From: Modestobacter italicus
Lineage (GTDB): Bacteria > Actinomycetota > Actinomycetes > Mycobacteriales > Geodermatophilaceae
Reading direction: 5' to 3'
Assembly: GCF_000306785.1 (NCBI RefSeq)
Contig: NC_017955.1
Span: 3,410,001 to 3,474,000, forward strand
Length of the DNA: 64,000 nucleotides
In this document: positions 9,164-59,887 of the stretch, piece after piece
Layout of the letters: every line of letters begins with the position of its first letter
Position numbering within the stretch: the stretch's first letter is position 1
Notes under the pieces: model-generated
What the model saw: only the letters and a program-made list of their open reading frames with translations
Database searches by the model: none
What the model was told of the DNA's origin: nothing
Translations under genes and position numbers: made by a program

Positions 9164-9221
9164 AAGGACCCCCTCGCCCCCCACCCCTCGCAGGCTCGGG
9201 GCGGGCCCCTGCGAGGGGGCC
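9164..9221 (+). repeat. stop-proximal hairpin repeat, copy 1
   Basis: Copy 1 of a 58-bp imperfect palindrome found seven times. It opens AAGGACCCCC two bases after the stop of the LON-domain gene. The outer arms CCCCCTCGC and GCGAGGGGG pair; an inner arm is capped by CTCGCAGGCTCG. It fills most of the space to the convergent DUF2567 stop and likely ends transcription from the LON gene, perhaps from both sides. Confidence 0.85.
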
Positions 9222-9228
9222 GGGGCCG

Positions 9229-9909
9229 TCAGGGCCGGGGTGCGGGCGGGGGGACGGGCGGCAGCGGCGGCCGGATCGGTTCGTCCACCGGGTCGGGTCC
9301 GGTCCGGCCCAGGTCGTCGCGGGACGTGAGCGCGGTGGCCGCCAGGTAGACGAGGACGGCGATGAACGGCCCGACCGCCAGGGCGGCCGTGGCCCCGAGC
9401 GACAGCGCGGTGGTCACCGTCCGGCCGACGTCCTCCAGCTCGGCGTGGGTCGGGCCCGGTCCGGCCCACTGGCCCAGCTGCCAGGCCACGACCCCCGCGG
9501 CGAGCATCCCGGTGGCCAGGGCGACCAGGGTGAGCGGCCCGCGGCGCTGCCGGCGCAGCCAGACGACCAGCCCCGCCACCAGCCCGAGGGCCGCCAGGAC
9601 GCAGACGAACACCCCGTCGTCGGCCATGAACAGCTCCGCGGACGGTGCCCGGCCGATCGGCTCGACGCTGGTGGCGGTGACCCGGTAGTCCGCCCGGGGG
9701 GCGAGCCAGATCCACACCCCACCGGCCAGCAGCCCGGCCAGCGCCAGCGCGAGCACGGTGAGCAGCGCGCTGCGCAGGTCCGCACGGGTGCCGCGCAGGC
9801 CCGGCACGCCCGCCGGCCGGGCCGGCTGCCAGTGCGCCACCGGACCGTCGGACACCGCCGGCGCGGTCGGGAACGGGGCCGCCGGGCCGGGCGGACGAGC
9901 GTCGGTCAC
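9229..9909 (-). CDS. DUF2567 membrane protein
   Basis: A 226-residue membrane protein matching the actinobacterial DUF2567 family by its pattern: GTRADLRSALLTVLALALAG, then WLAPRADYRV, then MADDGVFVCVLAALG. Four hydrophobic segments are visible (about residues 45-65, 95-115, 125-145 and 170-200). The N-terminus is proline-rich and the tail PPLPPVPPPAPRP is polyproline-like. The GTG at 9909 is preferred to an ATG 30 bases upstream, where the sequence looks unlike relatives. The function is unknown. It lies downstream of dnaE1 on the same strand, separated by repeat copy 2. Confidence 0.75.
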   Translation of the reverse strand: MTDARPPGPAAPFPTAPAVSDGPVAHWQPARPAGVPGLRGTRADLRSALLTVLALALAGLLAGGVWIWLAPRADYRVTATSVEPIGRAPSAELFMADDGVFVCVLAALGLVAGLVVWLRRQRRGPLTLVALATGMLAAGVVAWQLGQWAGPGPTHAELEDVGRTVTTALSLGATAALAVGPFIAVLVYLAATALTSRDDLGRTGPDPVDEPIRPPLPPVPPPAPRP

Positions 9910-9979
9910 GGCCCCAGTGTCGCTGGCCCGGCTGTGCAACCGGCAACCACCCGGCGCACCTGCGGCGCGCCGGCCGCCC

Positions 9980-10037
9980 GGCCCCGCTGCAGGGGCCCGC
10001 CACGAGCTCGCGAGTGGTGGGGGGCAGCGGGGTCCTT
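9980..10037 (-). repeat. stop-proximal hairpin repeat, copy 2
   Basis: On the minus strand it begins AAGGACCCCGCTGC two bases after the dnaE1 stop. The outer arms CCCCGCTGC and GCAGCGGGG pair, and the inner arms around CTCGCGAGCTCG extend the hairpin with CCAC and GTGG. It separates dnaE1 from the co-directional DUF2567 gene. Confidence 0.85.
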
Positions 10038-10039
10038 CG

Positions 10040-13000
10040 TCACAGGAGGGCGACGCTGGTCGGGCCCAGCAGCGCCTTGATGTCGCCCATCAGCGCGGTG
10101 CTCGGCCGGACCCGCAGCCCCTGGTCCAGCCGGAGCACGGTCTCCCGGCCGCCGTTGAGCAGCTTGAGCTGCACCTCGGTCGTGCCCGGGTGGCTGCCCA
10201 GCACCTCGCGGAGCCGCTCCACGACCGGCGGGGTGCAGCGGGCGGCGGGCAGCGAGACCAGCACCGGCCCGCGCGGGCCCTCGGTCAGCTCGGGGATGGT
10301 GACCTCGGAGGCGAACAGCGACGGGGTGTCGTCCCGGCGGCTGATCCGGCCCTTGACCACGATGATCTGGTCGCGGACGACCTTCTCCGACACCTCGGCC
10401 CAGGTCTTGGGGAAGAACAGCACCTCGATGCCCGCCTCGAGGTCCTCGAGGGTGGCGATCGCCCAGGGGGCGCCCTGCTTGTTCGTCCGCGGCCCGACGG
10501 CGGTGAGGATGCCGGCGATGGTGACGTTCGCGCCGTCCTCGACACCGCCGGCGAGGATCTCGGCCAGCGCGGTGTCGGCGTGCGAGGTGAGCACGTGCTC
10601 GACGCCGTGCAGCGGGTGGTCGGAGACGTAGAGGCCGAGCATGTCGCGCTCGAAGACCAGCCGCTCGGACTTCGACCAGTCCGCGGTCGGGATGGGGATG
10701 TCCAGCGCGGCGCTGAGCGGGTCGCCCAGCCCGCTGTCGCCGTCGTCGTCACCGAAGCCGCCGAACAGGTCGAACTGCCCCTCGGCCTCCTTGCGCTTGA
10801 GGCTCATCGCCGAGTCGACCGCCTGGGCGTGGATCGCGGCGATGCCCTGCCGCGAGTGGCCCAGCGAGTCGAAGCCGCCGGCCTTGGCCAGGGACTCGAT
10901 GACCTTCTTGTTGCAGGCCACCGTGTCGATCTTGCGCATGAAGTCGGCGAAGTCCTTGAACGCGCCCTTCTCCTCGCGCGCCCGCACGATCGAGTCGACG
11001 ACGTTGTGCCCGACGTTGCGCACCGAGGCCATGCCGAACCGGATGTCGCCGCCGACGGCGGTGAAGTCCCAGGAGGACTCGTTGACGTCCGGCGGCAGCA
11101 CCTTGATGCCCATCCGCCGGCACTCGGCCAGGTAGACCGGCCGCCGGTCCTTGTCGTCGCCGACGCTGGTGAGCAGCCCGGCCATGTACTCGGCCGGGTA
11201 GTTGGCCTTGAGGTAGGCCGTCCAGTACGACACCAGCCCGTACGCGGCCGAGTGCGCCTTGTTGAAGGCGTAGTCGGCGAAGGGCACCAGGATGTCCCAC
11301 AGCGTCTTGACCGCCGCGGCGGAGAAGCCGTTGGCCTTCATCCCGGCCTCGAAGCCGACGTACTCGGCGTCCAGGACCGACTTCTTCTTCTTGCCCATCG
11401 CCCGGCGCAGCAGGTCGGCCTTGCCCAGCGAGTACCCGGCGACCTTCTGGGCGATCGCCATGACCTGCTCCTGGTACACGATCAGGCCGTAGGTCTGGCC
11501 CAGGATCTCCGCGAGCGGCTCGGCCAGCTCGGGGTGGATCGGGGTGATCTCCTGCTGGCCGTTCTTGCGCAGCGCGTAGTTCGTGTGCGAGTTCGCGCCC
11601 ATCGGGCCCGGGCGGTACAGCGCGCCGACGGCAGAGATGTCCTCGAAGTTGTCCGGGCGCATCAGCCGCAGCAGGGACCGCATCGGGCCGCCGTCGAACT
11701 GGAAGACGCCGAGGGTCTCACCGCGGGCCAGCAGGGCGTAGGTGGCCGGGTCGGTGAGGTCCTTGCTGATCTCGTCGAGGTCGACCGGCTCCTTGCCGTT
11801 GATCACGATGTTGCGCAGCGCGTCGTCGATGACGGTGAGGTTGCGCAGGCCCAGGAAGTCCATCTTGAGCAGGCCGAGCGTCTCGCAGGTCGGGTAGTCG
11901 AACTGCGTGATGATCGCGCCGTCGGCCTCGCGCCGCATGATCGGGATGCTGTCGATCAGCGGGTAGCGGCCGATGATCACGCCGGCCGCGTGCACGCCCC
12001 ACTGCCGCTTCAGGCCCTCGAGCTTGCGGGCCTGGTCGACGACCTCGGCCGCGCCCGGGTCCGACTCGTACCGGGCCCGGAACTCCGCGGCCTCCTTGTA
12101 GCGGTCGTGCTTGGGGTCGAAGATCCCCGACAGCGGGATGTCCTTGCCCATGACGCCCGGCGGCATGAGCTTGGTCAGCTCGTCGCCCACCGAGTAGGGC
12201 CGGTCCAGCACCCGGGCGGCGTCCTTGATGGCGGCCTTGGCCTTGATGGTCCCGTAGGTGACGATCTGGCTGACCCGCTCCTCGCCGTACTTCTGCGACA
12301 CGTACTGGATGACCTCGCCGCGGCGGCGGTCGTCGAAGTCGATGTCGACGTCGGGCATGGAGACGCGCTCGGGGTTGAGGAACCGCTCGAAGATCAGCCC
12401 GTGCGCCAGCGGGTCGAGGTCGGTGATGCCCATCGCGTAGGCGGCCAGCGAACCGGCGGCCGAGCCACGGCCCGGGCCGACCCGGATGCCGTTGTCCTTC
12501 GCCCAGTTGATGAAGTCGGCGACCACGAGGAAGTACCCCGGGAAGCCCATCTGGCAGATGATCCCGGTCTCGTAGTCGGCCTGCTTGCGCACGTGGTCGG
12601 GGATGCCGCCGGGGTAGCGCTTGTGCAGCCCACGCTCGACCTCCTTGATGAACCAGGAGGTCTCGTCCTCGCCCTCGGGCAGCGGGAAGCGGGGCATGAG
12701 GTCGGCGCCCTCGGTGAACTGCACCTCGCACTGCTCGGCGATCAGCAGGGTGTTGTCGCAGGCCTCGGGGTGCTCGCGGAACAGCGCCCGCATCTCGGCG
12801 GCGGACTTGAGGTAGTAGCCGTCGCCGTTGAACTTGAAGCGGTTGGTCTCGTTGAGCCGCGACCCGGTCTGGATGCACAGCAGGGCGTCGTGCGCCTGGG
12901 CGTCCTCGCGGTGGGTGTAGTGCAGGTCGTTGGTGCCCAGCAGCGGGATGCCGAGGTCCTTCGCGATCTCCAGCAGCGCCGGCTTGGTCTTCTTCTCGAT

Positions 13001-13612
13001 GGACAGCCCGTGGTCCATGATCTCGGCGTAGAAGTTCTCACGCCCGAAGATGTCCTGGAAGTCCGCGGCGGCCTGCCGGGCGCGGTCGACCTTGCCGGCC
13101 CGCAGCCACATGTTGACCTCGCCCGACGGGCAGCCGGTCGTGGCGATCAGGCCCTTCCCGTACCGCTCCAGCAGGTCCCGGTCGAAGCGCGGCTTGCGGT
13201 ACTGGCCCTCGAGGCTGGCCAGCGAGGAGATGCGGAAGAGGTTGTGCATCCCCTCGGTGGTGCGGGCCAGCAGCGTCATGTGGGTGTAGGCGGCCTTGCC
13301 GCGGTTGTTGCCGCCGTCGCCCTCCTCGTCGATCAGCTTGTCACCGAAGTCGAAGGGGGCGCGGTCGAACCGGGAGCCGGGGGTGTAGTAGCCCTCCATG
13401 CCGATGATCGGCTTGACCCCGGCGGCGTTGGCCTGCTTGTAGAAGTCGTAGGCGCCGAACACGTTGCCGTGGTCGGTCATCGCCAGCGCCGGCATCCCCT
13501 CGGCCGCGGCGGCCTTGGTGACCTCGCCGAGCTTCGCCGCCCCGTCGAGCATCGAGTACTCGGTGTGCACGTGCAGGTGCACGAAGTTCTCTGATCTGGC
13601 GGGGCTGCTCAC
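10040..13612 (-). CDS. dnaE: DNA polymerase III alpha subunit DnaE1
   Basis: The catalytic subunit of the replicative C-family polymerase, 1190 residues. An N-terminal PHP domain starts with FVHLHVHTEYSMLDGAAKLG, and TDHGNVFGAYDFY follows. The palm domain has GPGRGSAAGSLAAYA and the catalytic aspartates in MPDVDIDFDDRRR near residue 420. Helix-hairpin-helix, OB-fold and tau-binding regions follow, with NVTIAGILTAVGPRTNKQG in the OB fold. It starts at GTG 13612 with GAGGAG about 12 bases upstream. The length is usual for actinobacterial DnaE1. A second, shorter C-family polymerase (DnaE2) lies at 59890-63627, so this one is the processive replicase. Confidence 0.98.
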   Translation of the reverse strand: MSSPARSENFVHLHVHTEYSMLDGAAKLGEVTKAAAAEGMPALAMTDHGNVFGAYDFYKQANAAGVKPIIGMEGYYTPGSRFDRAPFDFGDKLIDEEGDGGNNRGKAAYTHMTLLARTTEGMHNLFRISSLASLEGQYRKPRFDRDLLERYGKGLIATTGCPSGEVNMWLRAGKVDRARQAAADFQDIFGRENFYAEIMDHGLSIEKKTKPALLEIAKDLGIPLLGTNDLHYTHREDAQAHDALLCIQTGSRLNETNRFKFNGDGYYLKSAAEMRALFREHPEACDNTLLIAEQCEVQFTEGADLMPRFPLPEGEDETSWFIKEVERGLHKRYPGGIPDHVRKQADYETGIICQMGFPGYFLVVADFINWAKDNGIRVGPGRGSAAGSLAAYAMGITDLDPLAHGLIFERFLNPERVSMPDVDIDFDDRRRGEVIQYVSQKYGEERVSQIVTYGTIKAKAAIKDAARVLDRPYSVGDELTKLMPPGVMGKDIPLSGIFDPKHDRYKEAAEFRARYESDPGAAEVVDQARKLEGLKRQWGVHAAGVIIGRYPLIDSIPIMRREADGAIITQFDYPTCETLGLLKMDFLGLRNLTVIDDALRNIVINGKEPVDLDEISKDLTDPATYALLARGETLGVFQFDGGPMRSLLRLMRPDNFEDISAVGALYRPGPMGANSHTNYALRKNGQQEITPIHPELAEPLAEILGQTYGLIVYQEQVMAIAQKVAGYSLGKADLLRRAMGKKKKSVLDAEYVGFEAGMKANGFSAAAVKTLWDILVPFADYAFNKAHSAAYGLVSYWTAYLKANYPAEYMAGLLTSVGDDKDRRPVYLAECRRMGIKVLPPDVNESSWDFTAVGGDIRFGMASVRNVGHNVVDSIVRAREEKGAFKDFADFMRKIDTVACNKKVIESLAKAGGFDSLGHSRQGIAAIHAQAVDSAMSLKRKEAEGQFDLFGGFGDDDGDSGLGDPLSAALDIPIPTADWSKSERLVFERDMLGLYVSDHPLHGVEHVLTSHADTALAEILAGGVEDGANVTIAGILTAVGPRTNKQGAPWAIATLEDLEAGIEVLFFPKTWAEVSEKVVRDQIIVVKGRISRRDDTPSLFASEVTIPELTEGPRGPVLVSLPAARCTPPVVERLREVLGSHPGTTEVQLKLLNGGRETVLRLDQGLRVRPSTALMGDIKALLGPTSVALL

Positions 13613-13868
13613 GGTGCGGGGTGCTCCTCACGGGTCGTGCGGCCGGCTGGCACCGGCAGGTGCGCAGGGGCGGCAGGTGGTTCTGGTGACCGGCGGGAAA
13701 GGCCGTTCGAGGTCGGGCTGGCACTACGGGTGGCACTGCCGGGGCACTGCACTCACCACAGGCGGTGTCGCCCGGGGTGGAGGCCGTCCGCGGTGTCCCG
13801 ATCCTCGCACCTCCGGAGGTCTACCCGAAGGGTCTGACGGAACGTGTCCCGCGATCCGGACCACTCCG

Positions 13869-14342
13869 TCACACCACCCCGGGGTGCCCCTCCGCCAGCG
13901 ACCGGCGCATCGTCACGTGGACGATGCCGGCCTCCTCGTACTCCTCGCCCAGGACCCGGTAGCCGGCCCGCTCGTAGAACCGCCGGGCGGTGACCTGGGC
14001 GTGCAGCTCGACCTCCGTCTGGCCCCGCGCCGCCGCCTCGCGGTGCAGCGCCGCGAGGACCGCGCCGCCGTGTCCGCGCCCCCGCACCGCCGGGTCGGCG
14101 GCCATCCGGCCGATCAGCGCGCGCCCCGGGCCGGCGGCGTCGGGCAGCAGCCGGCCGGTGGCGCACACCCGCCCGGCGTCGTCCCGGCTGAGGGCGTGCA
14201 CGGCGGTGGCGTCGGCGTCGTCCCGCTCCAGCTCGGCGGGCACGCCCTGCTCCAGAACGAACACCCGGTGCCGCAGTGCGGCGACCTCCGGCCAGTCGGC
14301 GGCGGTGGCGGTGGTCGCGGTCGGCCGCGCGGGCCCGGTCAC
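13869..14342 (-). CDS. ElaA-like GNAT acetyltransferase
   Basis: A 157-residue GNAT protein. The N-terminal LRHRVFVLEQGVPAELERDD resembles the ElaA/YjdJ branch. The acetyl-CoA loop is DPAVRGRGHGGAVLAALHRE, and the C-terminal block is TARRFYERAGYRVLGEEYEE. The GTG start overlaps the stop of the CPBP protease gene by 4 bp, so the two are co-translated. The 256 bp between it and dnaE1 (13613-13868) hold the dnaE1 promoter region and no further gene. The substrate is unknown. Confidence 0.85.
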   Translation of the reverse strand: MTGPARPTATTATAADWPEVAALRHRVFVLEQGVPAELERDDADATAVHALSRDDAGRVCATGRLLPDAAGPGRALIGRMAADPAVRGRGHGGAVLAALHREAAARGQTEVELHAQVTARRFYERAGYRVLGEEYEEAGIVHVTMRRSLAEGHPGVV

Positions 14343-15124: not shown

Positions 15125-15133
15125 CGCCGCCGC

Positions 15134-16099: not shown

Positions 16100-16154
16100 C
16101 TCACCATTGTGACCGGTGGGGCCGACGGGACCGGCGGCGCCGGGCCGGGTCGGC

Positions 16155-18453: not shown

Positions 18454-18510
18454 AAGGACCCCGCTGCCCCCACGCCTCGCAAGCTCGGCGCGGGCCCCTG
18501 CAGCGGGGCC
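18454..18510 (+). repeat. stop-proximal hairpin repeat, copy 3
   Basis: It begins AAGGACCCCGCTGC two bases after the mqo stop and ends GCAGCGGGGCC one base before the antiporter stop. It therefore fills the whole gap between two convergent genes. The inner arms GCC and GGC flank the cap CTCGCAAGCTCG. Likely a bidirectional terminator. Confidence 0.85.
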
Positions 18511-18511
18511 G

Positions 18512-20026
<1,515 letters not shown>

Positions 20027-27754: not shown

Positions 27755-27774
27755 TGGACGCGACGTGCTGGAAC

Positions 27775-27832
27775 GGCCCCTCTGCAGGGACCCGGGGCGA
27801 GCTTGCGAGTCCCGGGGGGCAGAGGGGTCCTT
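27775..27832 (-). repeat. stop-proximal hairpin repeat, copy 4
   Basis: It begins AAGGACCCCTCTGC directly after the ftsZ stop with no spacer. The arms CCCCTCTGC and GCAGAGGGG pair, and the inner arms CCCGGG and CCCGGG flank CTCGCAAGCTCG. The inner arm differs from the other copies yet still pairs. It separates ftsZ from pgeF. Confidence 0.85.
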
Positions 27833-29128
27833 TCACTGGGAGCGGAGGAACTCGGGGATGTCGAGCTCCTCCTCGAAGTCCTCCGAGGCCAGCGGACGGC
27901 GGGTGCCGTTGCCCGGCCCGGCGATGGGCGGCAGCGGCGGCACGGTGATGCCGCCGCCCTGCGGCGCGACGCCGGGCTGGCCCGGGCGGGGTGCCGCCGG
28001 GGACGCCTGGGTGGTGGGCGCGGCCGCCGTGGGGGCCGGCGAGACGAGCCGCTCGCCGGTCTGCGCCGGGACGGACGGCCGCGGGGCGGCCGGCGCGACC
28101 GGGGCAGCGGCGACCGGTGCCGGGGCCGGCGGAGCAGCCGGGGCGACCGACGTGACCGCGGCGTCCTTGCGCTGACCGGGCTTGCCCTGGTCGAAGCCGG
28201 CCGCGATGACCGTCACCCGCACCTCGTCGCCGAGGGCGTCGTCGATGACGGCCCCGAAGATGATGTTGGCGTCGGGGTGCGCGGCGTCGGAGACCAGCGA
28301 GGCGGCCTCGTTGATCTCGAACAGGCCCAGGTCCGAGCCGCCGGAGATCGACAGCAGGACGCCGTGGGCGCCCTCCATCGAGGCCTCCAGCAGCGGGCTG
28401 GCGATCGCCTGCTCGGCGGCGAGCAGGGCGCGGTTGTCACCGCGCGCGCTGCCGATGCCCATCAGCGCCGAGCCCGCACCGGACATGACCGACTTGACGT
28501 CGGCGAAGTCCAGGTTGATCAGGCCGGGGGTGGTGATCAGGTCGGTGATGCCCTGGACGCCGGAGAGGAGCACCTGGTCGGCGGTCCGGAAGGCGTCCAT
28601 CACGCTGACGTTCCGGTCGCCCAGCTGCAGCAGCCGGTCGTTCGGGATCACGATCAGCGTGTCGCACTCGTTGCGCAGCTCCTCGATGCCCGACTCGGCC
28701 TGGACCGCCCGCCGCTTCCCCTCGAAGGAGAACGGACGGGTGACCACGCCGATGGTCAGGGCGCCGAGCTTCCGCGCGATGGAGGCGACGACGGGTGCGC
28801 CACCGGTGCCGGTGCCACCGCCCTCGCCCGCCGTCACGAAGACCATGTCGGCGCCCTTGAGCACCTCCTCGATCTCCTCGCGGTGGTCCTCTGCGGCCTG
28901 CCGGCCGACATCGGGCTGCGCGCCCGCGCCCAGGCCGCGGGTGAGCTCACGGCCGACGTCGAGCTTGACGTCCGCGTCGCTCATCAGCAGTGCCTGTGCG
29001 TCGGTGTTGATCGCGATGAACTCGACCCCCTTGAGGCCGACCTCGATCATGCGATTGACCGCGTTCACCCCGCCGCCGCCGATGCCGACGACCTTGATGA
29101 CCGCGAGGTAGTTGTGCGGAGGTGTCAT
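27833..29128 (-). CDS. ftsZ: cell division GTPase FtsZ
   Basis: The tubulin-like GTPase that forms the division ring. The 431-residue protein has the nucleotide-binding [17 protein letters not shown], the tubulin signature [13 protein letters not shown] near residue 100, and the T7 catalytic region [16 protein letters not shown] Pro/Ala-rich linker (about 320-410) leads to the C-terminal tail DIPEFLRSQ, which binds SepF and other partners. ATG 29128 has GGGGAG upstream. It is separated from ftsQ by an AhpD-like gene, which is unusual, and has its own 333-bp leader. Confidence 0.98.
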
Positions 29129-30046: not shown

Positions 30047-30079
30047 CCGGTCACTCTGCCGCACCTCGCGTGGCTTGTC

Positions 30080-30137
30080 GGCCCCGCTGCAGGGGCCCGC
30101 CGCGAGCTCGCGAGCGGTGGGGGGCAGCGGGGTCCTT
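30080..30137 (-). repeat. stop-proximal hairpin repeat, copy 5
   Basis: It begins AAGGACCCCGCTGC two bases after the ftsQ stop. The arms CCCCGCTGC and GCAGCGGGG pair, and the inner palindrome CTCGCGAGCTCG is flanked by CCACCG and CGGCGG. Almost identical to copy 2. It would close the long mraZ-to-ftsQ transcript. Confidence 0.85.
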
Positions 30138-30139: not shown

Positions 30140-30955
30140 TCACCGCAGGACGACGGAGTCCGGGGTGCTGACGTCGAGGGTGCCGGCGGGGTCGAGCGTC
30201 CCGGCGTCGATCTGGTCGAGCAGCGCGCCGAGCACCTCGGCCTTCCGGTCGGTCTGGGCCGCGCTCCCCCACAGCACCGACCGGCCGTCGGTGAGGGTCA
30301 GGGTGACGGCGTCCGGGCTGGTGGCGGCCACGCCGGTCACCTGGTCGCGCACGTCCGGCGGCAGCGCGGTCAGCGCCCCGAGCGCAGCGGTGGTCGCCGC
30401 GTCGTCCGGACCGGGGTCCGGCACGTCGAGCGGGACGACGCCGTCCGGCGGGGTGCCGGTGATCGTCTCGAACACCACGCCCTCGGCGTCCACCAGCCGG
30501 CGCGTGCCCCCGTCGGTGACCACCGCCACCGGCACCCGCTCGGCCAGCGTCACGACCACCGTGCGGGGCCAGCCCCGGGTGACCTCGACCGAGGCGACCT
30601 GCGGGAGCGCGGCGACCCGGGCGGCCGCGGCCGCGGTGTCGACCCGCGCCAGCGGCGTGCCCGCGGCGATGCCGGCCACCTGGACCACCTGCTCCGCGGA
30701 GAGCCGCGCCTCGCCGTCGACCTGGACCGTGCGGACCGCGAAGACCGGGCTGCCCAGCACCACCCAGGCGAGGACGCCGACGACCAGCACGGCCGCGCCC
30801 AGCGCGACGAGCGCCCGCCGGCCCGGGTGGGCCGGGCGCCGCGACCGGCGCCGGCGGGGGCGCAGCGGGGTGACCGGGGACGGGGTGTCCCCGCCCGTGC
30901 CGCCGCCCCGCCGTCCGCCCCGGGCGCGGTCGCGGGTCGTCGCGGCGCGGCTCAC
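30140..30955 (-). CDS. ftsQ: cell division protein FtsQ
   Basis: A bitopic divisome protein that links early and late division proteins through FtsL and FtsB. The 271 residues comprise an Arg-rich cytoplasmic head (1-50), one membrane helix (ALVALGAAVLVVGVLAWVVL), and a periplasm-side POTRA domain starting FAVRTVQVDGEARLSAEQVV. A beta domain follows, with GWPRTVVVTLAERVPVAVV. The GTG start overlaps murC by 4 bp. Its stop is followed by repeat copy 5. Confidence 0.94.
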   Translation of the reverse strand: MSRAATTRDRARGGRRGGGTGGDTPSPVTPLRPRRRRSRRPAHPGRRALVALGAAVLVVGVLAWVVLGSPVFAVRTVQVDGEARLSAEQVVQVAGIAAGTPLARVDTAAAAARVAALPQVASVEVTRGWPRTVVVTLAERVPVAVVTDGGTRRLVDAEGVVFETITGTPPDGVVPLDVPDPGPDDAATTAALGALTALPPDVRDQVTGVAATSPDAVTLTLTDGRSVLWGSAAQTDRKAEVLGALLDQIDAGTLDPAGTLDVSTPDSVVLR

Positions 30956-47792: not shown

Positions 47793-50137
47793 GCTCCACC
47801 CCCGACGAGCTGCCCCGCGCTCCCCGCGACCACGCCGGCACCGCCCTCGCGGCCGGCGTCGGCGTGCTGCTCGGCTCGCTCGCCCTCGACCCGGTGTTCG
47901 CCGCCCGCAACTGGGTCCCGCCGGTGGTGCTGGCCGTCGCGGCGGTCACCCTCGGCGGGATCGCGCTGCGCGCCGGGTTCTCCCGGCTGCTGGACCAGCG
48001 CGGTCCCGGGTCGGCGCTGCTCGGGACGCTCGGCCGGGTCGCCGTCCCGCTGGGCCAGCTGCTGCTGGTGCTGGTCGTGCTCGGCCGGGTGTTCGCCCCC
48101 GAGCACCTGCTGTGGGGGCTGCTGCCGACCCCCGGCAGCATCACCGACCTGGCCGGCGTGCTCGCCGACGGCGTGGACGAGATCGCCGAGCAGGCGACCC
48201 CGGCCCTGCCGCTCGACGGCCTGGTCGCGCTGACCACGCTGTTCGTCGCGCTGGTCGCGCTCGCCGCCGACCTGCTCGCCGTCCCCGCCCGGCAGCCCGC
48301 CCTGGGCGGCCTGGGCCTGCTCGTCCTCTACTGCGTCCCGGTCAGCACGGTCACCGGCAGCGTCGCCTTCCTCTCCTTCGCCGGCCCCGCCTGCGGGTTC
48401 GCCGTCCTGCTGTGGGCCGACCAGCGCGGCCGGCTGGTGGACAGCGCGCGCGGCGGCAGCGGCTCCCTGCTGGGCACCGCGACGCTGCCCGCGCTGCGCG
48501 CCGGGGCGGTCGCCCTGGTGGCCGGCCTGGTGCTGCCGGTGTTCGTGCCGACCCTCGCCGAGGGCTCGCTGGCCAGCGGGTTCGGCGGGGCCGGCACCGG
48601 CAACGGCCTGGGCTCCTCGCTGGACCCGGTCGCCGAGATGGCCGGCCAGCTCAACCGGCCCGAGCCGATGGACCTGCTGCGGCTGCAGGCCTCCGTCGAC
48701 GACCCGGGCTTCCTGCGCGCGGTCGCCCTGGACGAGTACGGCGACAACGGCTGGCACATGTCCAACCTGGACGGCGAGGAGTCGATCGCCGACGACACGA
48801 CCCTGGCCCCGCTGCCCGCGGACGTGGTCAGCCGGGAGGTCCGGGCCCGAGTCACCGTCCTGGGGCACGACGACCAGTTCCTGCCGGTGGGCTACGCCCC
48901 GCAGCAGGTCGACGTGGCCGGCGACGACGACCGGGCCTGGCGAATCGACCAGGCCGGCACGACGATCTACGGCCGCGACGTCACCACCGGTGGGATCACC
49001 TACCAGTTCTCCGCAGAGCAGCCCGACCCGTCGGTCCAGGACCTGGAGGCCGCGCCCGAGCTGGCCGCCGACGACCCGATGCTGCGGTACACCGAGCTGC
49101 CGGTCATCGCCACCAGCGTCACCGACCTGGCCGCGAACCTGACCGCGGACGCCGGCACGCCCTACGACCGGGTGCGCGCCGTGCTGTCGCACTTCACCGA
49201 CCCGGCCAACCGGTTCGTCTACAGCCTGTCCACCGCGCCGGGCACCACCGGGGACGACCTGGTCGACTTCCTCCGCCTCAAGCGCGGCTACTGCGAGCAG
49301 TACGCCGGCGCGATGGCGGTGCTGGTGCGGGCCGCCGGCGTCCCGGCCCGGGTCGTGCTGGGCTACACCCCCGGCCAGGTGCAGGAGGACGGCAGCCGGC
49401 TGGTGACCACCGACGACGCGCACGCCTGGGTGGAGGCGTGGTTCGCCGGGCTGGGCTGGATCCCCTTCGACCCCACCCCGATCGCCGCCGACCGGGCGGT
49501 CACGCTGCCGTGGGCACCGCGCACGGTGATCCCCGCGGACACCACCGCCGAGCCGACCGCGCCGGACGCCGGGGTGCCGGTGCCGGCCGGCCCGACCGCG
49601 ACCATCGACCGGGACGACCAGTACGTGCCCATCGACGTCGAGGCGCTGCAGGGCGACCGCTCGCTGACCCCGTGGTTCGCCGGGGCCGGCGGGGCCGTCG
49701 TCCTGCTCGCGCTGCTGGCCGCGCCGGGCCTGCTGCGCCGGCGCACCCGGCGCCGGCGGCTGGCCGACGGGAGCGCCGGCGCGCTGTGGGAGGAGCTGCT
49801 GGCCACCGCGGCCGACCTCCGCGTCGACGTGCCGGTCACCGGCACCACCCGCCAGGTCGCCCGCGACCTGGCCGAGCGGCTGGCCGGCAGCGAGCCGGCG
49901 GCGGTCCCGGCGGTGCGCTCGCTCGCCCTCGCCCAGGAGCGCGCCGTCTACGGCCGGCCGACGGGCACCGGCCCGGACCCCGAGTCGGCGACCGCGCTGC
50001 GCACCGTCCGGCGGGCGCTGCTGCGCCGGGCGACCCGCGCCCAGCGGCTGCGGGCGGCCGGGTGGCCGGCCTCGACGCTGGCCGACGTGACCGGCTGGCT
50101 GTCGGCCCACACCCCCCGGCGGCTCCGCGCCGCCTGA
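47789..50137 (+). CDS. TgpA-like transglutaminase-domain membrane protein
   Basis: A 782-residue protein with six to seven N-terminal helices (residues 18-230), an extracytoplasmic transglutaminase-like domain and one more helix (near 645), then a cytoplasmic DUF4129-like tail. The Cys-His-Asp triad is visible: [32 protein letters not shown] and GWIPFDPTP. TgpA-type proteins may process or link wall proteins; the substrate is unknown. The ATG start overlaps the DUF58 stop. It ends the moxR operon, followed by repeat copy 6. Confidence 0.92.
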
Positions 50138-50146: not shown

Positions 50147-50203
50147 AAGGACCCCCTTGCCCCCACCCTTCGCGAGCTCAGGGCGGGGCCCTGCAAGGGG
50201 GCC
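50147..50203 (+). repeat. stop-proximal hairpin repeat, copy 6
   Basis: It begins AAGGACCCCC nine bases after the transglutaminase stop; the extra spacing comes from an inserted stretch beginning ACAAGGTGG. The arms CCCCCTTGC and GCAAGGGGG pair, and the cap is TTCGCGAGCTC. The two-base change in the arm is matched on the other side. It lies between convergent genes. Confidence 0.82.
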
Positions 50204-50269
50204 GGGGGCGGGCCCTGCACGGGTTGACGCTGGGGGCCTGCACTGGGGCCGTACGTCGCCTGGGACGAC

Positions 50270-54065: not shown

Positions 54066-55060
54066 CGGGGCGCCCGCTGCCGGAGCAGCGCACCGAGGGC
54101 GGCGTCGTCCCGGCTGCCGTGGTGCTGGCGCAGGTAGACGGTGAGGTCGGCGACCCGGGTGGCGTGCCCGGCGTCGTGGGCCAGCGGGCCGGCGCCGAGC
54201 GCGCGCCCGACGACGCCCAGCACCTCCTCCCCGGCCCGGGCGGCGAGCCCGCGCACCCGGTGGGCCCGGAGCTGCGCGTCCCCGGCGTCGTCCCGGGGGT
54301 CGGCGTCGACCTCGGCCGCGGCGACCTGCAGTGCTGCCTCGACCCCGGCGAGGGCCAGGTCGGCGGCACCCAGGGCGGCGTCGCGCAGCGGGTCGGCCCC
54401 GCGCTGCACGGCGACGTCGGTGAGCGTCGCCGCCACGCCGCGGGCGCCCCCGACCCACACGGCGGCCACGCCGATCCCGCCGTGCCAGAAGCCCGGCCGG
54501 TCCAGGTAGGCCCGCGGACCGCCGACCGGCCGGGCGGGGACGTCGACCAGCAGGACGTCGGCGGTGTCGCTGCCGGCCATGCCCGCGCCCACCCAGGCGC
54601 CCGGGTCCACCCGCACCCCGGGGTGGGCCAGGTCGACCAGGAAGAGCCGCCGCCCGTCGTCCGCGGTGGCGGTGACCAGCGCGGCGGTGAGCGCGCGGGC
54701 TCCCGAGCACCACTGCTTGCGTCCGGAGAGCCGCCAGCCGCGCGCGGTCCGCACCGCGGTGACCTCCCCGCCCGGTGGTTCGGCGGCCCACACCCCCAGC
54801 CGCTGGCCGGCCGCCACGGGCGGCCCGTCGAGCTCGGCCAGCACGGCGACCGCGTCGGCGTGGCCCTCGACCAGCCGGGCGAGCGCCAGGTCCTGCTCGC
54901 CGACCGCGGCCAGCGCCCGCCACCGGGCCAGCGTCGCGCCCGCCCCGGGGAGCGGCACCGACCAGCCCGCGGTGACCAGGTCGCGGAAGGCCGCGGCCGT
55001 CGCCGTCACCGCCTCGTCGACCGGTCCGACCTGCGGTCCGCCGGCCTCGAGTGCGCTCAT
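54062..55060 (-). CDS. acyl-CoA dehydrogenase-like protein
   Basis: A 332-residue flavoprotein-like member of the acyl-CoA dehydrogenase superfamily, shorter than the usual 380-400. The middle beta domain has GRKQWCSGARALTAALV near residue 115. C-terminal helices include GVEAALQVAAAEVD and RVRGLAARAGEEVLGVVGRA. The usual catalytic glutamate could not be placed, so the reaction may differ. It starts at ATG 55060, or at GTG 55063 one codon earlier. It is the first gene of the operon with PIG-L, methyltransferase and glycosyltransferase. The promoter lies in the 137-bp gap to the divergent GGAD gene. Confidence 0.82.
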   Translation of the reverse strand: MSALEAGGPQVGPVDEAVTATAAAFRDLVTAGWSVPLPGAGATLARWRALAAVGEQDLALARLVEGHADAVAVLAELDGPPVAAGQRLGVWAAEPPGGEVTAVRTARGWRLSGRKQWCSGARALTAALVTATADDGRRLFLVDLAHPGVRVDPGAWVGAGMAGSDTADVLLVDVPARPVGGPRAYLDRPGFWHGGIGVAAVWVGGARGVAATLTDVAVQRGADPLRDAALGAADLALAGVEAALQVAAAEVDADPRDDAGDAQLRAHRVRGLAARAGEEVLGVVGRALGAGPLAHDAGHATRVADLTVYLRQHHGSRDDAALGALLRQRAPR

Positions 55061-55197
55061 CACCGCGGACCATGCCACATCCGGTTGTGGGCCACCGAGA
55101 TGTGCGCCCCCCTGAGGTGTGGGGAGTCGATCATCGCGGTAGAACTGCCCCAGGTGGTCTCCGTCCGGTGGCCACGACGACGACGATCGGAGGAGCC

Positions 55198-55509
55198 ATG
55201 GCGCTCGACGACGACGACATGACCAGCACCGAGGGCCCCGCGGACTCGGGTGCGGGCGAGGGCACGCCCGGCCAGCACGACGGTGGAGCAGACGGCGGCG
55301 CCGACGGCGGTGCCGATGGTGGCGCGGACGGCGGTGCCGATGGTGGCGCGGACGGCGGTGCCGATGGTGGCGCCGACGGCGGTGCCGACGGTGGCGCTGA
55401 CGGTGGCGCGGACGGCGGTGCCGACGGTGGCGCCGAGGGCCCGGCCGACTCCGGGGCCGGTGGCGGTACGCCCGGTCAGCACGACGGCGGCGCGGACGGC
55501 TCGGCCTGA
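55198..55509 (+). CDS. acidic GGAD-repeat peptide
   Basis: A 103-residue protein with a strong ribosome site (GGAGGAG) six bases before its ATG. Residues 1-28 are a leader ending EGPADSGAGEGTPGQHD. Residues 29-80 are thirteen tandem tetrapeptides, twelve GGAD and a final GGAE. Residues 81-103 repeat the leader motif, GPADSGAGGGTPGQHD, then GGADGSA. It has no Cys, Lys, Arg, aromatic residue or hydrophobic stretch, so it is soluble and highly acidic. Codons in the repeats vary at third positions, which suggests selection on protein. The JmjC gene starts two bases after its stop. It may be a substrate of that oxygenase; this is inference. No family is recognised. Confidence 0.8.
   Translation: MALDDDDMTSTEGPADSGAGEGTPGQHDGGADGGADGGADGGADGGADGGADGGADGGADGGADGGADGGADGGADGGAEGPADSGAGGGTPGQHDGGADGSA
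55282..55437 (+). repeat. 12-bp tandem repeat coding for GGAD
   Basis: Thirteen units of 12 bp. Many alternate between GACGGCGGTGCC and GATGGTGGCGCG, so a 24-bp super-unit is visible and copy number may change by slippage. It lies wholly inside the acidic peptide gene and keeps the frame. Confidence 0.9.
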
Positions 55510-55511
55510 GC

Positions 55512-56843
55512 GTGCCTGACCCGGAACGGCAGGACCGGGCGTCGTCCTCCACCTCGGAGGGCGGCGCCCGTCCCGCGCTGAGCCGCTGCATCCGCGTCGA
55601 CCCCGAGGTCTTCGCCGCCGAGCACTGGGCCCGGCGCCCGCTGCTGTCCACCGCCGAGCAGCTCGGGAGCACCTTCACCGACCTGCTGACCCTGGACGCG
55701 GTCGACGAGCTGCTGAGCACCCGCGGGCTGCGCACGCCGTTCCTCCGCATCGCCAAGGACGGCGCCGTCGTCGACACCAAGCGCTTCACCAGCCCCCAGG
55801 GCGCGGGCGCCGAGGTCGCCGACCAGGTGTCCTCCGACGCGGTGCTCCGGCTCTTCGCCGACGGCAGCACCGTCGTGCTGCAGGGGCTGCACCGGCTGTG
55901 GCCGCCGCTGATCGCGTTCGCCGGCCAGCTCGCCGCCGACCTCGGGCACCCCACCCAGGTCAACGCCTACATCACCCCGCCGTCCTCGCGCGGGTTCTCC
56001 CCGCACTACGACGTGCACGACGTCTTCGTGCTGCAGGTCGCCGGCGAGAAGCACTGGACGATCCACGAGCCGTTGCTCGCCGACCCGCTGCGCACCCACC
56101 CGTGGGCCGACCGGGCCGCGGAGGTCGCCGCCGCCGCCGAGCGCGCGCCGGTGATCGACACCGTGCTGCGCCCCGGCGACGCCCTCTACCTGCCGCGCGG
56201 CTACATCCACTCGGCGGTCGCGCTCGGCGAGATCAGCGCCCACCTCACCGTCGGGGTCCACTCGGTGACCCGGTGGGGCGCGGTCGAGTCCGCGCTGGAC
56301 CTGGTCCGCACCCTCGCCGCCGACGACCCCGCGCTGCGCGGTTCGCTGCCGCTCGGCGTCGACCTCGCCGATCCCGCGGCCACCGCCGATGACGTCGCGG
56401 CCGTGCTCACCGGTCTGCACCGCTGGCTGGACCAGGTCGACCCGGCCGCCGTCGCCGACTCGCTGCGGGCCCGGACCTGGGCCCAGGTGCGCCCGGCCCC
56501 GGTGTCGCCGCTGGCCCAGTCCAGCGCCCTCACCGCCCTGGACGCCGACTCCGTGCTGCAGGTGCGCCCGCTGCTCCGGGTCAAGCTGCACGACCCGGTC
56601 GGGGGCCGGGTGGCGCTGGTCGCCGGCCGCCGCACGCACGACCTCCCGGCCGCCACCCACCCGGCGCTGGCCGCGCTGCTGGCCGCGGGCGAGCTGAAGG
56701 TCGGCGACCTGCCCGGGCTGGACGCCGACGAGCGGCTCACGCTGGCCCGCCGGCTGGTGACCGAGGCGATCGCGGTCGTCCCGGACGCCCGCCCCGCGGG
56801 CGGCGGGCACGATGGAGACCGTGGCGGCCATCCCGGACGGTGA
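55512..56843 (+). CDS. JmjC-domain (cupin) oxygenase, YcfD/ROXA-like
   Basis: A 443-residue Fe(II)/2-oxoglutarate oxygenase of the ROXA type, whose members hydroxylate ribosomal proteins or peptides. The iron ligands are visible: HYDVHDVFVLQVAGEKHW near residue 165 (HxD) and the distal His in LPRGYIHSAVALG near 232. A winged-helix-like C-terminal part follows. The N-terminal RCIRVDPEVFAAEHWARRPL is typical of the family. It starts with GTG two bases after the GGAD peptide gene. Its end overlaps the next gene by 32 bp. The substrate could be the adjacent acidic peptide or a ribosomal protein. Confidence 0.88.
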   Translation: MPDPERQDRASSSTSEGGARPALSRCIRVDPEVFAAEHWARRPLLSTAEQLGSTFTDLLTLDAVDELLSTRGLRTPFLRIAKDGAVVDTKRFTSPQGAGAEVADQVSSDAVLRLFADGSTVVLQGLHRLWPPLIAFAGQLAADLGHPTQVNAYITPPSSRGFSPHYDVHDVFVLQVAGEKHWTIHEPLLADPLRTHPWADRAAEVAAAAERAPVIDTVLRPGDALYLPRGYIHSAVALGEISAHLTVGVHSVTRWGAVESALDLVRTLAADDPALRGSLPLGVDLADPAATADDVAAVLTGLHRWLDQVDPAAVADSLRARTWAQVRPAPVSPLAQSSALTALDADSVLQVRPLLRVKLHDPVGGRVALVAGRRTHDLPAATHPALAALLAAGELKVGDLPGLDADERLTLARRLVTEAIAVVPDARPAGGGHDGDRGGHPGR

Positions 56844-57831
56844 CCCGGCGGGCCGGGACGGCTCGACCGGACCCGAGTTCTGCCGCGACGCCGAGACGCC
56901 CGCGCCCCGCTCGACCCCCGTCGGCCGGCTGGACCCGGCGCGTTGCTCGGTCCAGGCCCTGGTGCGCGGCGACTCCGGTCTCGCCACCGCTCCCCCGGCA
57001 CGGCGCTGGCTGCTGGTCGAGCAGCCGGGGCCGTGGGGGCGGGACGCGCTGCTGGAGTCCCGGTTCGACCGGCGGGTGGCGTCCCGGCTGGCCGCCCGGG
57101 CCCGGGAGCTGGGGCTGCGGATCCAGATGGTGCGGCGGGCGGGGGGCCGGCTGGCGGAGTCCGGCCGGCGCTGGGCGGTCGCGGACACCACCCCCGGGGT
57201 GGAAACCATCTGGTGGTCCACCCGGGAGTCCGACGCCGACCTGCTGCAGCTGCCGTGGGACGGGTCGGCCGGCACGCCGTCGCAGGCACCGACGTACCTG
57301 GTGTGCACGCACGGCGCGCACGACGTCTGCTGCGCCGTCCGCGGCCGCCCGCTCACCCGCACGCTGGAGGCCACCGGGGAGGCCGCCGACGTGTGGGAGA
57401 CCAGCCACCTCGGCGGGTGCCGGTTCGCGGCCAACGTCGTCGTGCTGCCCTCCGGGCTCTACTACGGGCAGGTGCCCGAGGACGGCGGCGGGCTGGTCGC
57501 GGCCTCCGCTGCCGGCCAGGTGGTGCTGCCGCTGCTGCGCGGGCGGGCCGGGCTCGTCCCGGCGGCCCAGGCGGCGCAGCACGCTGCCCGCCGGGAGCTC
57601 GGCCTGCTCGGCGTCCGCGACCTGCCGGTGCGGCGGGTCCAGGCGCTGCCGGCACCGGCGCCCGGCGTGGACCGCTTCGACGTCGTGCTCACCGGCCCGG
57701 ACGGGGACGTGGTCGTCACCGTCGAGAGCCGGCTGTCCGGCACCGCGGAGCGGCTGACCTGCTCCGCGGCGTCGCCGGGCCACTGGCGCAGCTGGCACGC
57801 GCCGGCGCTGCGGGTCATCGCCCCGGTCTGA
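56812..57831 (+). CDS. sucrase/ferredoxin-like protein
   Basis: A 339-residue protein of the sucrase/ferredoxin-like (SUC-FdL) family, a thioredoxin-like fold that holds a [2Fe-2S] cluster. Cysteines lie in CTHGAHDVCCAVRGRPL near residue 165 and HLGGCRFAANVVVLPSGLYY near 200. An early block RWLLVEQPGPWGRDALLES is also typical. It may supply electrons or iron to the JmjC oxygenase. The ATG at 56812 overlaps that gene by 32 bp; a GTG nine bases later is an alternative. Its own role is unproven in the family. Confidence 0.85.
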   Translation: METVAAIPDGDPAGRDGSTGPEFCRDAETPAPRSTPVGRLDPARCSVQALVRGDSGLATAPPARRWLLVEQPGPWGRDALLESRFDRRVASRLAARARELGLRIQMVRRAGGRLAESGRRWAVADTTPGVETIWWSTRESDADLLQLPWDGSAGTPSQAPTYLVCTHGAHDVCCAVRGRPLTRTLEATGEAADVWETSHLGGCRFAANVVVLPSGLYYGQVPEDGGGLVAASAAGQVVLPLLRGRAGLVPAAQAAQHAARRELGLLGVRDLPVRRVQALPAPAPGVDRFDVVLTGPDGDVVVTVESRLSGTAERLTCSAASPGHWRSWHAPALRVIAPV

Positions 57832-57836
57832 GCCCC

Positions 57837-57858
57837 GGCCCGGACCCTGGTCCGGGCC
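57837..57858. terminator. bidirectional hairpin terminator
   Basis: A perfect 10-bp stem (GGCCCGGACC with GGTCCGGGCC) and a 2-base loop in the 27-bp gap between convergent genes. It probably serves both. It is not a copy of the seven-fold repeat. Confidence 0.7.
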
Positions 57859-59031
57859 TCAGGCCAGCGCGCGGCCGCGGGCGGCGAGCAGCGGGACGGC
57901 CAGCTCGGCCGAGGTGAGCGAGCCGTGGAAGGCCGCGAGCAGCGAGGTGTGCGGCTCGCTCGCCAGGTCGGTGAACGCCCAGCTGCTGCGGGCCAGCGCG
58001 ACCACGTCGCCGATCCGGTCGGCCAGCTGCTCCTGGACGTCGCCGAATACGCCGCTGGCGATCGCCTCCGCCCGGCTGACCACCCAGGCGCGGTGCCCGA
58101 GCACCGACCGCCAGGTGGCGAGGACGTCGTCCGCGGCGCCGGGCTCGGTGTGCAGGTACCGGGCGCGGGGCTCGCCGGTGACCAGCCGCACGCCGTCGGT
58201 CAGGCCGGGCTCCTCCCCCACGTCCAGCCGGGTGGAGGCCGGCACGTCGACCATGCCGTGGTCGGCGGTGACCAGCAGGACGGCGTCGTCGGGCAGCCCG
58301 GCGGCGAGCTGCTCGACCATCCGGTCGACGACGCCGAGCTGGTGCCGCCAGCTGGCGGAGTCGACCCCGCGGACGTGCCCGGTGAGGTCGAGCTCGGCGG
58401 TGTAGCCGTAGACCAGGCTGCGGTCGCCGGCGGCCAGCGCGGCGTGCACGACGCCCACCAGGTCGCCGGGGCTGTAGGCGTTGGCGTAGTCGGCGCCGCG
58501 GTAGGCGGCCCGGGTGAGCCCGGAGCGGGCGAAGGAGTGCGGCCCGACCGCGGTGCAGGTGACGCCGTGCGCGGTGGCCTGCTCGAAGACCGTCGGCTGG
58601 GCCTGCCACTGCAGCGGGTCGGGGTCGTCCCGCCAGTGGACGTGGTTGAGGGTGCGGCCCTCGCCGGGCACCTCGGTGACGAAGCCGAGCACGCCGTGCC
58701 CGCCCGGCGGGAGCCCGGTGCCCAGCGTGGTGAGGCTGACCGGGGTGGTGCTCGGGCACGGCGCGGACAGCACGCCGGCCGGGGTGCCGAGCGCGTTGAG
58801 CACCGGGGCCTCGTCGGGGTGCGCGGCGAGCAGCTCGGCGCCCAGCCCGTCGACCAGCAGGACGGCGACCCGCCGGGCGCCGCCCAGGGCCGGGGTCAGG
58901 TCCAGCGGGTCGGCCGGCAGGTCGCCGCGGCGGACCGGCACCCCGAGCGCGGTGGCGACGCTGGGCAGCACGTCGGCGAGGGTGCGGGCGCCGTAGGCGG
59001 GGACCGCGAGGTCGTCGGGTGGGACCGTCAC
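57859..59031 (-). CDS. alkaline-phosphatase-fold phosphodiesterase/nucleotide pyrophosphatase
   Basis: A 390-residue protein of the type I phosphodiesterase / nucleotide pyrophosphatase family. Metal and nucleophile motifs are visible: AVLLVDGLGAELLAAH near residue 60, the Thr nucleophile region PSTTPVSLTTLGTG near 95, TAELDLTGHVRG near 220 and VTADHGMVDVP near 260. No signal peptide is seen. The GTG start overlaps the methyltransferase stop by 4 bp. The substrate is unknown. Confidence 0.9.
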   Translation of the reverse strand: MTVPPDDLAVPAYGARTLADVLPSVATALGVPVRRGDLPADPLDLTPALGGARRVAVLLVDGLGAELLAAHPDEAPVLNALGTPAGVLSAPCPSTTPVSLTTLGTGLPPGGHGVLGFVTEVPGEGRTLNHVHWRDDPDPLQWQAQPTVFEQATAHGVTCTAVGPHSFARSGLTRAAYRGADYANAYSPGDLVGVVHAALAAGDRSLVYGYTAELDLTGHVRGVDSASWRHQLGVVDRMVEQLAAGLPDDAVLLVTADHGMVDVPASTRLDVGEEPGLTDGVRLVTGEPRARYLHTEPGAADDVLATWRSVLGHRAWVVSRAEAIASGVFGDVQEQLADRIGDVVALARSSWAFTDLASEPHTSLLAAFHGSLTSAELAVPLLAARGRALA

Positions 59032-59765
59032 GGCCGGGTGGCCAGCACGTGCAGCCCGGTCGCGACGTCGCGGTAGGGCGACGTGGTCGCCAGCGAGAGC
59101 TCCAGGGCGCGCAGCGCGTCGGCGTCGGCACCGGTGGAGGCGCCGAGCAGGTCGGTGACGACGGAGACCCCGCGCCACTCCCCCGGCTCCAGGCCGGCGC
59201 CGGCGAGCAGGCCGATCAGCTCCTCGGGGCCGAACCGGCGGCGGGCCGGGCCGCCGCGGGCCGGGGCCGGGTCCTGCCCGGTGAGCAGGGCGCGGGCCTC
59301 CACCGGGTGGCCGCCGACGGCGCGGGCGAGCACGGCGCCGGCCCGGTTCGCCGAGGCGGTGGAGAGCAGGCCGCCGGGGCGCAGGACACCGGCGACCTGC
59401 TGCAGCGTGCTGGCCGGGTCGTCGACGACCTCGAGGACGAAGTGGCAGAGCACCAGGTCGAACAGGTCGGCCGAGGGCAGCGCGGTGAGCATCCGGTCGC
59501 CGTCGCCCTGCACGCCGCGGACCCGCTCGCCGACCCCGGCGGTCGCGGCCCGCCGGTGCAGGGTGGCCAGCGCGTCGGCGCTGGGGTCGACCACGGTGAC
59601 GTGGTGGCCCAGCTCGGCCAGCGGCACGGCGAACATCCCGCTGCCGCCACCGACGTCGAGCACCTGCAGCGGGGCACCGGTGGTGACCACGGGGTCGAGC
59701 GCGGCCCAGATCGCGGCCGTGCGGGCAGGTGCCTGGGCGACGGCTGCGGGCGGGGTGGGCGGCAC
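59028..59765 (-). CDS. class I SAM-dependent methyltransferase
   Basis: A 245-residue methyltransferase. Motif I is VLDVGGGSGMFAVPLAELGH near residue 36, the acidic loop is VTVVDPSADALATL, and motif IV is FDLVLCHFVLEVVDDP near 105. Overall it resembles the UbiE/SmtA type, but the target cannot be told. The start is GTG. It overlaps the phosphodiesterase and lies after dnaE2, separated by repeat copy 7. Confidence 0.88.
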   Translation of the reverse strand: MPPTPPAAVAQAPARTAAIWAALDPVVTTGAPLQVLDVGGGSGMFAVPLAELGHHVTVVDPSADALATLHRRAATAGVGERVRGVQGDGDRMLTALPSADLFDLVLCHFVLEVVDDPASTLQQVAGVLRPGGLLSTASANRAGAVLARAVGGHPVEARALLTGQDPAPARGGPARRRFGPEELIGLLAGAGLEPGEWRGVSVVTDLLGASTGADADALRALELSLATTSPYRDVATGLHVLATRP

Positions 59766-59829
59766 GAGCGGAGCCTAGTGGCGCGCCCCGGGCACCGCCG
59801 TCCACGGGGAGGGCGGCACCCGACGGCCC

Positions 59830-59887
59830 GGCCCCGCCGCAGGGCCCCGCCGCGAGCCTGCGAGTGGCGGGGGGCGGCGGGGTCCTT
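59830..59887 (-). repeat. stop-proximal hairpin repeat, copy 7
   Basis: On the minus strand it begins AAGGACCCCGCCGC two bases after the dnaE2 stop. The arms CCCCGCCGC and GCGGCGGGG pair, and the cap is CTCGCAGGCTCG. It separates dnaE2 from the co-directional methyltransferase gene. Confidence 0.85.

Follow-up and report, generated by a model that had tools for sequence, protein, structure and literature searches.

The described repeats closest to the one reported here are repetitive extragenic palindromic (REP) sequences and REP doublets forming hairpins (REPINs), which are 20 to 40 nt long. In the passages available of PMC3733652 and PMC3116915, the GTAG- and CGTC-tagged families appear as short, high-copy intergenic palindromes that lie mostly downstream of genes, with variable stems and species-specific versions. 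According to the same passages, GTAG REPs often give the flanking open reading frame (ORF) a TAG stop, some REPs lie inside other palindromes, and CGTC REPs, too, have no dedicated transposase. PMC3733652 mentions untagged REP-like families in Mycobacterium tuberculosis and other species, so that an untagged REP-like repeat in the phylum Actinomycetota is not unheard of in itself; the word "Actinobacteria" is absent from the main text of that paper. Here we describe a 59-nt hairpin element of Modestobacter italicus (Geodermatophilaceae), recognized through seven copies behind stop codons in a 64,000-nt stretch (positions 3,410,001 to 3,474,000 of contig NC_017955.1; hereafter, the window) of a genome that consists of a single contig of 5,575,517 bases. 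Compared with 76 named loci, the window has its best DNA match in a Modestobacter locus (92.9%), and mean identity is likewise highest for Modestobacter (84.3%).

Like REPs, the element is a high-copy intergenic palindrome with variable stems. It differs from them in its length of 59 nt with two stems, in having one prevailing orientation relative to genes and a fixed distance from the stop codon, and in that no Y1 transposase was found in the family. On inspection, the foot of the stem carries no GTAG tag, and CGTC occurs only within a 16-nt extension present behind a minority of copies. Because neither the tag nor the transposase was found, we do not file the element as a REP: it is REP-like, and REPs are its nearest class.

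The attC sites of integrons are bottom-strand hairpins with variable arms that lie directly after a stop codon and carry R boxes of the form RYYYAAC and GTTRRRY. The element shares the bottom-strand hairpin, the variable arms, and the place right after the stop. However, no R box was seen on inspection of its consensus, and its copies stand behind ordinary chromosomal genes.

Mycobacterial interspersed repetitive units (MIRUs) are the nearest case of a short, apparently mobile actinobacterial repeat at a codon-defined place; in the available text of PMC12548453, their place of insertion is the start codon and an internal ORF is coupled to the gene with a −4 spacing, whereas the element is a hairpin after stops. 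The intrinsic and bidirectional terminators of GC-rich actinobacteria, as presented for Streptomyces clavuligerus in the accessible part of PMC8269248, are likewise GC-rich hairpins, and the antisense side of the element has the U-rich tail used to recognize them. Unlike those terminators, it faces into the gene, recurs genome-wide in similar form, and has a tail that is partly the complement of a stop codon. We found no description of the repeat in the open-licence PubMed Central (PMC) literature, and a comparison of Geodermatophilaceae genomes (PMC9686282) does not mention it in its passages on "palindromic" and "repeat".

Results

A dispersed hairpin with covarying arms

The consensus of the element reads roughly AAGGACCCC-nnn-GC-CCCCCACnn-CTCGCrrGCTCG-nnGGCGGG-nCCCT-GC-nnn-GGGGCCG. 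A covariance model (R1) was built from the seven window copies and then run on the whole genome, as the initial annotation had proposed, and returned 147 copies from 150 scored candidates, so that the genome has at least 147. Polarity by replication strand is limited to a mild bias (+43/−28 in the first half of the contig, +32/−44 in the second). Few of the copies fall at about 1.75 to 2.5, 2.75 to 3.25, and 5.25 to 5.5 Mb. Own-genome analyses used 861 kb, made up of the window and 40 tiles picked for copy richness; this set holds 108 matches at E up to 0.1, of which the best 103 (E up to 3.5e-5) were used and five weak ones dropped. There are at least two subtypes, the second having an inner stem of CTC/GAG instead of CCC/GGG. 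The first G of the 16-nt extension, GTTCCAGCACGTCACC, is the last base of the 59-nt element, and some extended copies are then followed by 5′-truncated half copies. None of the 4227 Rfam models reached its gathering score on the window, and around one copy the only Rfam matches had E-values from 0.84 up, far below gathering scores.

Across the 108 matches, 95.7% of pair cells hold standard pairs compared with 80.7% in shuffles, and 266 cells are changed on both sides of the pair compared with 76 in shuffles, in an alignment that was fitted to the model. Standard pairs changed on one side only are nearly absent on the sense strand, that of the preceding gene (3 cells vs 266). Among the 103 copies are 57 gap-free 59-mers, and in 49 of these the 3-nt variable arms pair without a mismatch, against a shuffled mean of 7.7. 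The paired changes from which selection on structure had originally been proposed therefore hold in larger sets; in the seven window copies themselves, whose arms differ yet stay complementary, RNAalifold gives 18 pairs, seven of them changed on both sides.

The fold is better kept on the strand opposite the gene

To compare the two strands, we used 151 distinct gap-free 59-nt copies from 266 matches in three sets: the own genome, relatives, and loci in named genomes. On the gene strand, stem mismatches are overwhelmingly A·C or C·A (191 cells) rather than G·U or U·G (10 cells). Pairs 20-39 (115) and 23-36 (43) dominate these mismatches, and with both left out the excess persists (33 A·C vs 10 G·U; p=0.0006). 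Seventy-nine further copies of other length, from the own and named sets, show 39 A·C and 12 G·U, though the RNA scoring of the aligner is expected to favor G·U. An A·C mismatch on the gene strand is a G·U wobble on the opposite strand, so it is the antisense fold that appears to be maintained.

Individual pairs show the same polarity. Pair 20-39 forms in 150 of the 151 copies on the antisense strand and in 35 on the sense strand, and pair 5-57, which appears as an A bulge in the sense fold, is paired antisense in 147 of 151. Under a continuous 19-pair model, 2817 of 2869 cells are paired antisense compared with 2494 sense, and the predicted RNA energy is lower antisense in 149 of 151 copies (mean −39.7 vs −33.2 kcal/mol). 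Together, these data suggest that the meaningful fold is that of the strand opposite to the preceding gene.

A U-rich tail follows the antisense fold

In the antisense direction, the stem runs into CUUC, and the stop codon in complement (UCA, CUA, or UUA) comes next, as a rule one base on. A tail was scored as U-rich when the 8 nt after the stem held at least three U, the criterion given for S. clavuligerus Term-seq in the accessible part of PMC8269248; 4.9% of random 8-mers satisfy it. Such a tail is present antisense in 90 of 103 own, 18 of 34 relatives', and 99 of 124 named copies, and sense in 4, 2, and 11 of them, respectively. The layout of an intrinsic terminator, a stable GC hairpin with a U-rich tail, is thus found on the antisense side.

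For 32 codirectional gaps, no perfect inverted repeat is better than the element itself; the tail is antisense in 30 of these 32 and sense in one. Other hairpins in codirectional gaps have it on the sense side in 17 of 82 and on the antisense side in 6 of 82, so the polarity of the element is opposite to that of other gene-end hairpins here, most of which have no U-rich tail. Long perfect inverted repeats with stems of up to 17 to 23 bp also stand at gene ends in two groups of own-genome tiles (L038-L077 and L275-L285); they lie mostly between convergent genes, have no T-tracts, and are unrelated to the element.

Copies sit at a fixed distance from stop codons

Gene ends were taken from a simple gene caller that relies on codon usage and had been trained on this genome. 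By these calls, 93 of the 103 own copies lie behind a gene on the same strand, 87 of them at −2 to +14 nt from its stop, and 57 of the 103 stand exactly 2 nt past a TGA. Behind TAG stops, the placement is +0 in four of six. Codirectional neighbors flank 51 copies in the sense orientation and four in the antisense orientation; 42 copies lie between convergent and six between divergent genes, and errors in gene calling may account for some of the ten opposite-strand cases.

Within codirectional gaps, 43 of 51 own copies lie at most 3 nt from the stop, where random placement in the gap predicts 7.5. The named loci, which are independent of the own genome, give 53 of 63 against 6.6 expected, and ten relatives give 18 of 22 against 2.3. 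The enrichment after stop codons on which the initial annotation had hinged is therefore present in this genome and in named relatives. Its suggestion of a REP-like element that targets stop codons agrees with the precise placement and the REP-like behavior, but among the 16 own copies that do not follow a called stop, a TGA at the usual +2 position was seen by eye in only one, so the triplet itself is at most a possible target. For about five of these 16, a TAG or TAA is nearby, and the caller may have missed the gene in front of the copy.

Overlap with a called gene was found for six of the 103 own copies. In two of these six (L048:3197-3253 and L040:5864-5922), the gene call continues across the element to a stop 21 or 17 nt further on, in which case the C-terminus would be partly encoded by the element.

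The seven window copies

As delimited here, the window copies are 58 to 59 nt long, and all seven lie where they had been placed from the sequence. On the plus strand, one copy (9164-9222) starts 2 nt past the TGA of a gene ending at 9161; another (18454-18511) starts 2 nt past the mqo stop and fills the gap between the convergent stops of mqo (+) and a gene at 18512-20026 (−); and a third (50147-50204) starts 9 nt past the TGA of a gene ending at 50137. Just behind this last copy, positions 50205-50230 (+) resemble a 3′ half copy (GGCGGGCCCTGCACGGG). On the minus strand, copies stand 2 nt past the TGA of dnaE1 (copy, 9979-10037; gene, 10040-13612), directly after that of ftsZ (27774-27832; gene, 27833-29128), 2 nt past that of ftsQ (30079-30137; gene, 30140-30955), and 2 nt past that of a dnaE-type polymerase gene (59829-59887; gene, 59890-63849). 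The ftsZ copy carries a 3′ extension at 27758-27773 (−), TTCCAGCACGTCGCGT, of which the family form is GTTCCAGCACGTCACC.

The genes had been called unrelated, and this stands. The labels dnaE1, mqo, ftsZ, and dnaE-type polymerase are supported above curated NCBIfam cut-offs. The ftsQ label has an NCBIfam match of 5e-40 that is below its cut-off, and the LON label given to another host gene found no NCBIfam match at 1e-10. The leading 9-mer AAGGACCCC occurs eight times exactly in the window, the eighth (23885, +) with no element behind it. With one mismatch allowed, there are 28 matches against 13.8 expected, a number reached in one of 100 shuffles. At 28 against 13.8, little weight can be placed on the 9-mer by itself; the signal proper is the structured match over 59 nt.

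Occupancy of sites turns over

The copy after ftsZ is at the same place in seven of ten relatives, and most other sites turn over; in G051, the ftsZ gene was called too short to judge. Among 23 genomes of the genus, the ftsZ end is readable in 14: ten have clear copies, G003 and G113 have altered hairpins, and G107 and G001 have none. The arms of these copies mostly differ and stay largely complementary, and some species share a version. The hairpin at the G113 ftsZ end (L123) shares its first bases with the element but not its inner stem, and could represent either another subtype or a hybrid.

We compared the own genome with G007 over 341 kb, in which aligned stretches are about 90 to 93% identical in DNA. 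Of 243 orthologous gene ends, seven are filled in both genomes, 16 in one, and 220 in neither. At the seven shared sites, the arm sequence differs in six and is nearly the same in one. The stop codon differs at eight of 21 ends with conserved C-termini that have an element in one or both genomes, compared with nine of 186 that have none (p=3.9e-5); 36 ends with diverged C-termini were left out. Reading clean empty sites as evidence of fresh insertion alone was rejected, as several carry remnants of the element. Because some empty sites hold such remnants, decay by deletion is part of the turnover, alongside gain. At the mqo site, the own and G114 copies differ in strand and follow different members of the convergent gene pair.

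At named loci, inspection by eye also showed copies nested in the loop or in the arms of a second copy that has the same orientation (L186:7519, L149:6792, L216:2635, and L156:5080). An automatic nesting test counts 10 of 124 at named loci compared with 3.1 in swapped flanks; in the own genome (2 of 103 vs 1.1) and ten relatives (2 of 34 vs 1.05), the same test shows no clear excess.

Distribution and candidate mobility enzymes

In the whole-genome set, in which each species is represented by one genome, R1 matches at E up to 1e-6 occur in 101 of 112 family genomes and in nine of 12 genera. The 11 genomes with none comprise nine from genera g14-g16 and two complete genomes, G020 and G048 (99-100% complete), which have no R1 match though same-genus relatives have many copies; these two form a natural comparison set for function. 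Copy number varies within genera, with two copies in G036, three in G095, four in G026, seven in G040, and at least 49 in many others.

An order-level sample of 397 genomes gave 76 positives, three of them outside the family with one or two matches each, and a smaller check of eight genomes of other families gave none. One out-of-family match (G173:C6:469) is identical in coordinate and score to a named metagenome-assembled genome (MAG) locus, L148, and both matches of another such genome, G164, are on a single contig, for which reason we suspect mis-binned contigs. A pattern scan of named genomes found at least 115 stretches; of the 80 matches listed, 79 are in named Geodermatophilaceae and one is in a "Frankiales bacterium" MAG. 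The names among the listed matches are Blastococcus, Geodermatophilus, Modestobacter, and Goekera, all of which we take to be Geodermatophilaceae, or that of the family itself.

The Y1_Tnp domain of Y1 transposases, the type of REP-associated tyrosine transposases (RAYTs) and of IS200, was found in none of the 112 family genomes, with the control positive in five of 14; mobility driven by a RAYT or an IS200-type enzyme was rejected on this count. The reverse-transcriptase domain RVT_1 is present in 49 of 112, with no evident fit to copy number: two high-copy genomes, G114 and G004, lack it and two low-copy ones, G026 and G042, have it, and we rejected reverse-transcriptase-driven mobility. The M. 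italicus genome has a reverse-transcriptase domain at G000:C1:1091468-1092118 (−), in a 484-codon open frame; the domain recurs in frames of 476 to 490 codons in 13 further genomes of the genus, and its presence does not evidently track the copy number of the element.

Discussion

An intrinsic terminator that faces antisense is the best account of three features taken together: the fold and the U-rich tail on the antisense strand, and the position at the stop codon. The dispersal of the element in many copies, their nesting, and their turnover are in keeping with a non-autonomous repeat of REP-like type. Our leading, if tentative, reading is accordingly that the repeat carries such terminators through the genomes of Geodermatophilaceae. 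Read antisense, the element is an 11-bp stem joined through an asymmetric internal loop to one of 8 bp that ends in a conserved apical loop, and the hairpin is followed by CUUC and the stop complement; in this layout, that of an intrinsic terminator, the stop-codon complement would complete the U-rich tail. Oppositely directed transcripts, either convergent mRNA or spurious antisense RNA, would end at the last codon of the gene, and between convergent genes the element would also end the mRNA of the neighbor. Copies at gene ends would be gained, replaced, and lost over time. We infer termination in the cell, a benefit to the gene, and the way of spread from these features. A more specific form of the proposal, and a more doubtful one, is a family-wide repeat that installs antisense-facing terminators flush on stop codons, builds the stop complement into the U-tract, and spreads without a known REP transposase.

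Several observations weigh against a terminator of this kind. In 12 gap-free copies from ten relatives, mismatches outside the two special pairs are five G·U and three A·C, and in an 18-pair, sense-friendly register, sense pairing is also high (2602 of 2718 cells vs 2668 antisense). The unpaired columns, in which G to A accounts for 15 of 453 cells (14 of them at the last base) and C to T for 14 of 1359, leave room for a mutational bias toward G to A. The tail holds only about three U, part of them supplied by the stop codon; CTT-initial 8-mers reach three T in 47% anyway, and the antisense tail was found in only about half of the relatives' matches. Convergent ends are only modestly enriched (39 of 326 ends vs 50 of 679), and roughly half of the copies have codirectional neighbors, for which the reading has to postulate some origin of antisense RNA. 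A −10 promoter motif downstream of copies, looked for as a sign of a transcription-unit boundary, speaks for neither side: it was found in seven of 48, compared with 7.8 in controls and 3.5 in shuffled ones.

The strongest alternative, which we consider unlikely, is a selfish single-stranded DNA hairpin whose bottom-strand fold is needed by some enzyme for copying or moving. Placement at stops would then reflect either a preferred target or the one position where a copy does no harm, without any role in transcription. Its case draws on the sheer number of similar copies, a range within genera from zero in complete genomes to at least 49, the nested copies in named species, the 5′-truncated half copies, and the differing versions at orthologous sites; the DNA fold, too, is more stable on the antisense strand, in 138 of 151 copies. 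Such a hairpin would, however, leave the antisense U-rich tail unexplained, and it meets the missing Y1 transposase, the poor fit of RVT_1 to copy number, and the lack of a clear nesting excess in the own genome and relatives.

That the hairpin serves the upstream gene itself, as a terminator or an exonuclease barrier at the 3′ end of its mRNA, is improbable. The gene-sense orientation in codirectional gaps and the constant place past the stop would suit it, the sense strand folds strongly too, and by eye some element-free genomes have other hairpins at the same places. Selection on the RNA of the gene should nevertheless favor G·U over A·C on the gene strand, the opposite of what is seen, and a U-rich tail is rare on that side, so the initial annotation's proposal of a terminator or stabilizer finds no support if it is meant for the mRNA of the upstream gene. 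Least probable of all is that mutation alone accounts for the paired changes, through template switching in replication that perfects inverted repeats and exchange of versions between sites: it would agree with double changes nearly free of wobble intermediates and with the different versions at orthologous sites, but gives no evident reason for pairs formed only on the antisense strand or for the fixed distance from the stop.

Beyond this family, the polarity of A·C and G·U mismatches is a simple, reusable test for the functional strand of a palindromic repeat. U-tracts are scarce in very GC-rich bacteria, whose ways of bounding transcription and antisense RNA are poorly known. If the antisense-facing terminator is real, Geodermatophilaceae would offer a testable case of repeated DNA, gained and replaced at many gene ends, that shapes transcript boundaries with a U-tract borrowed from the stop codon and facing the wrong way for the gene's own mRNA.

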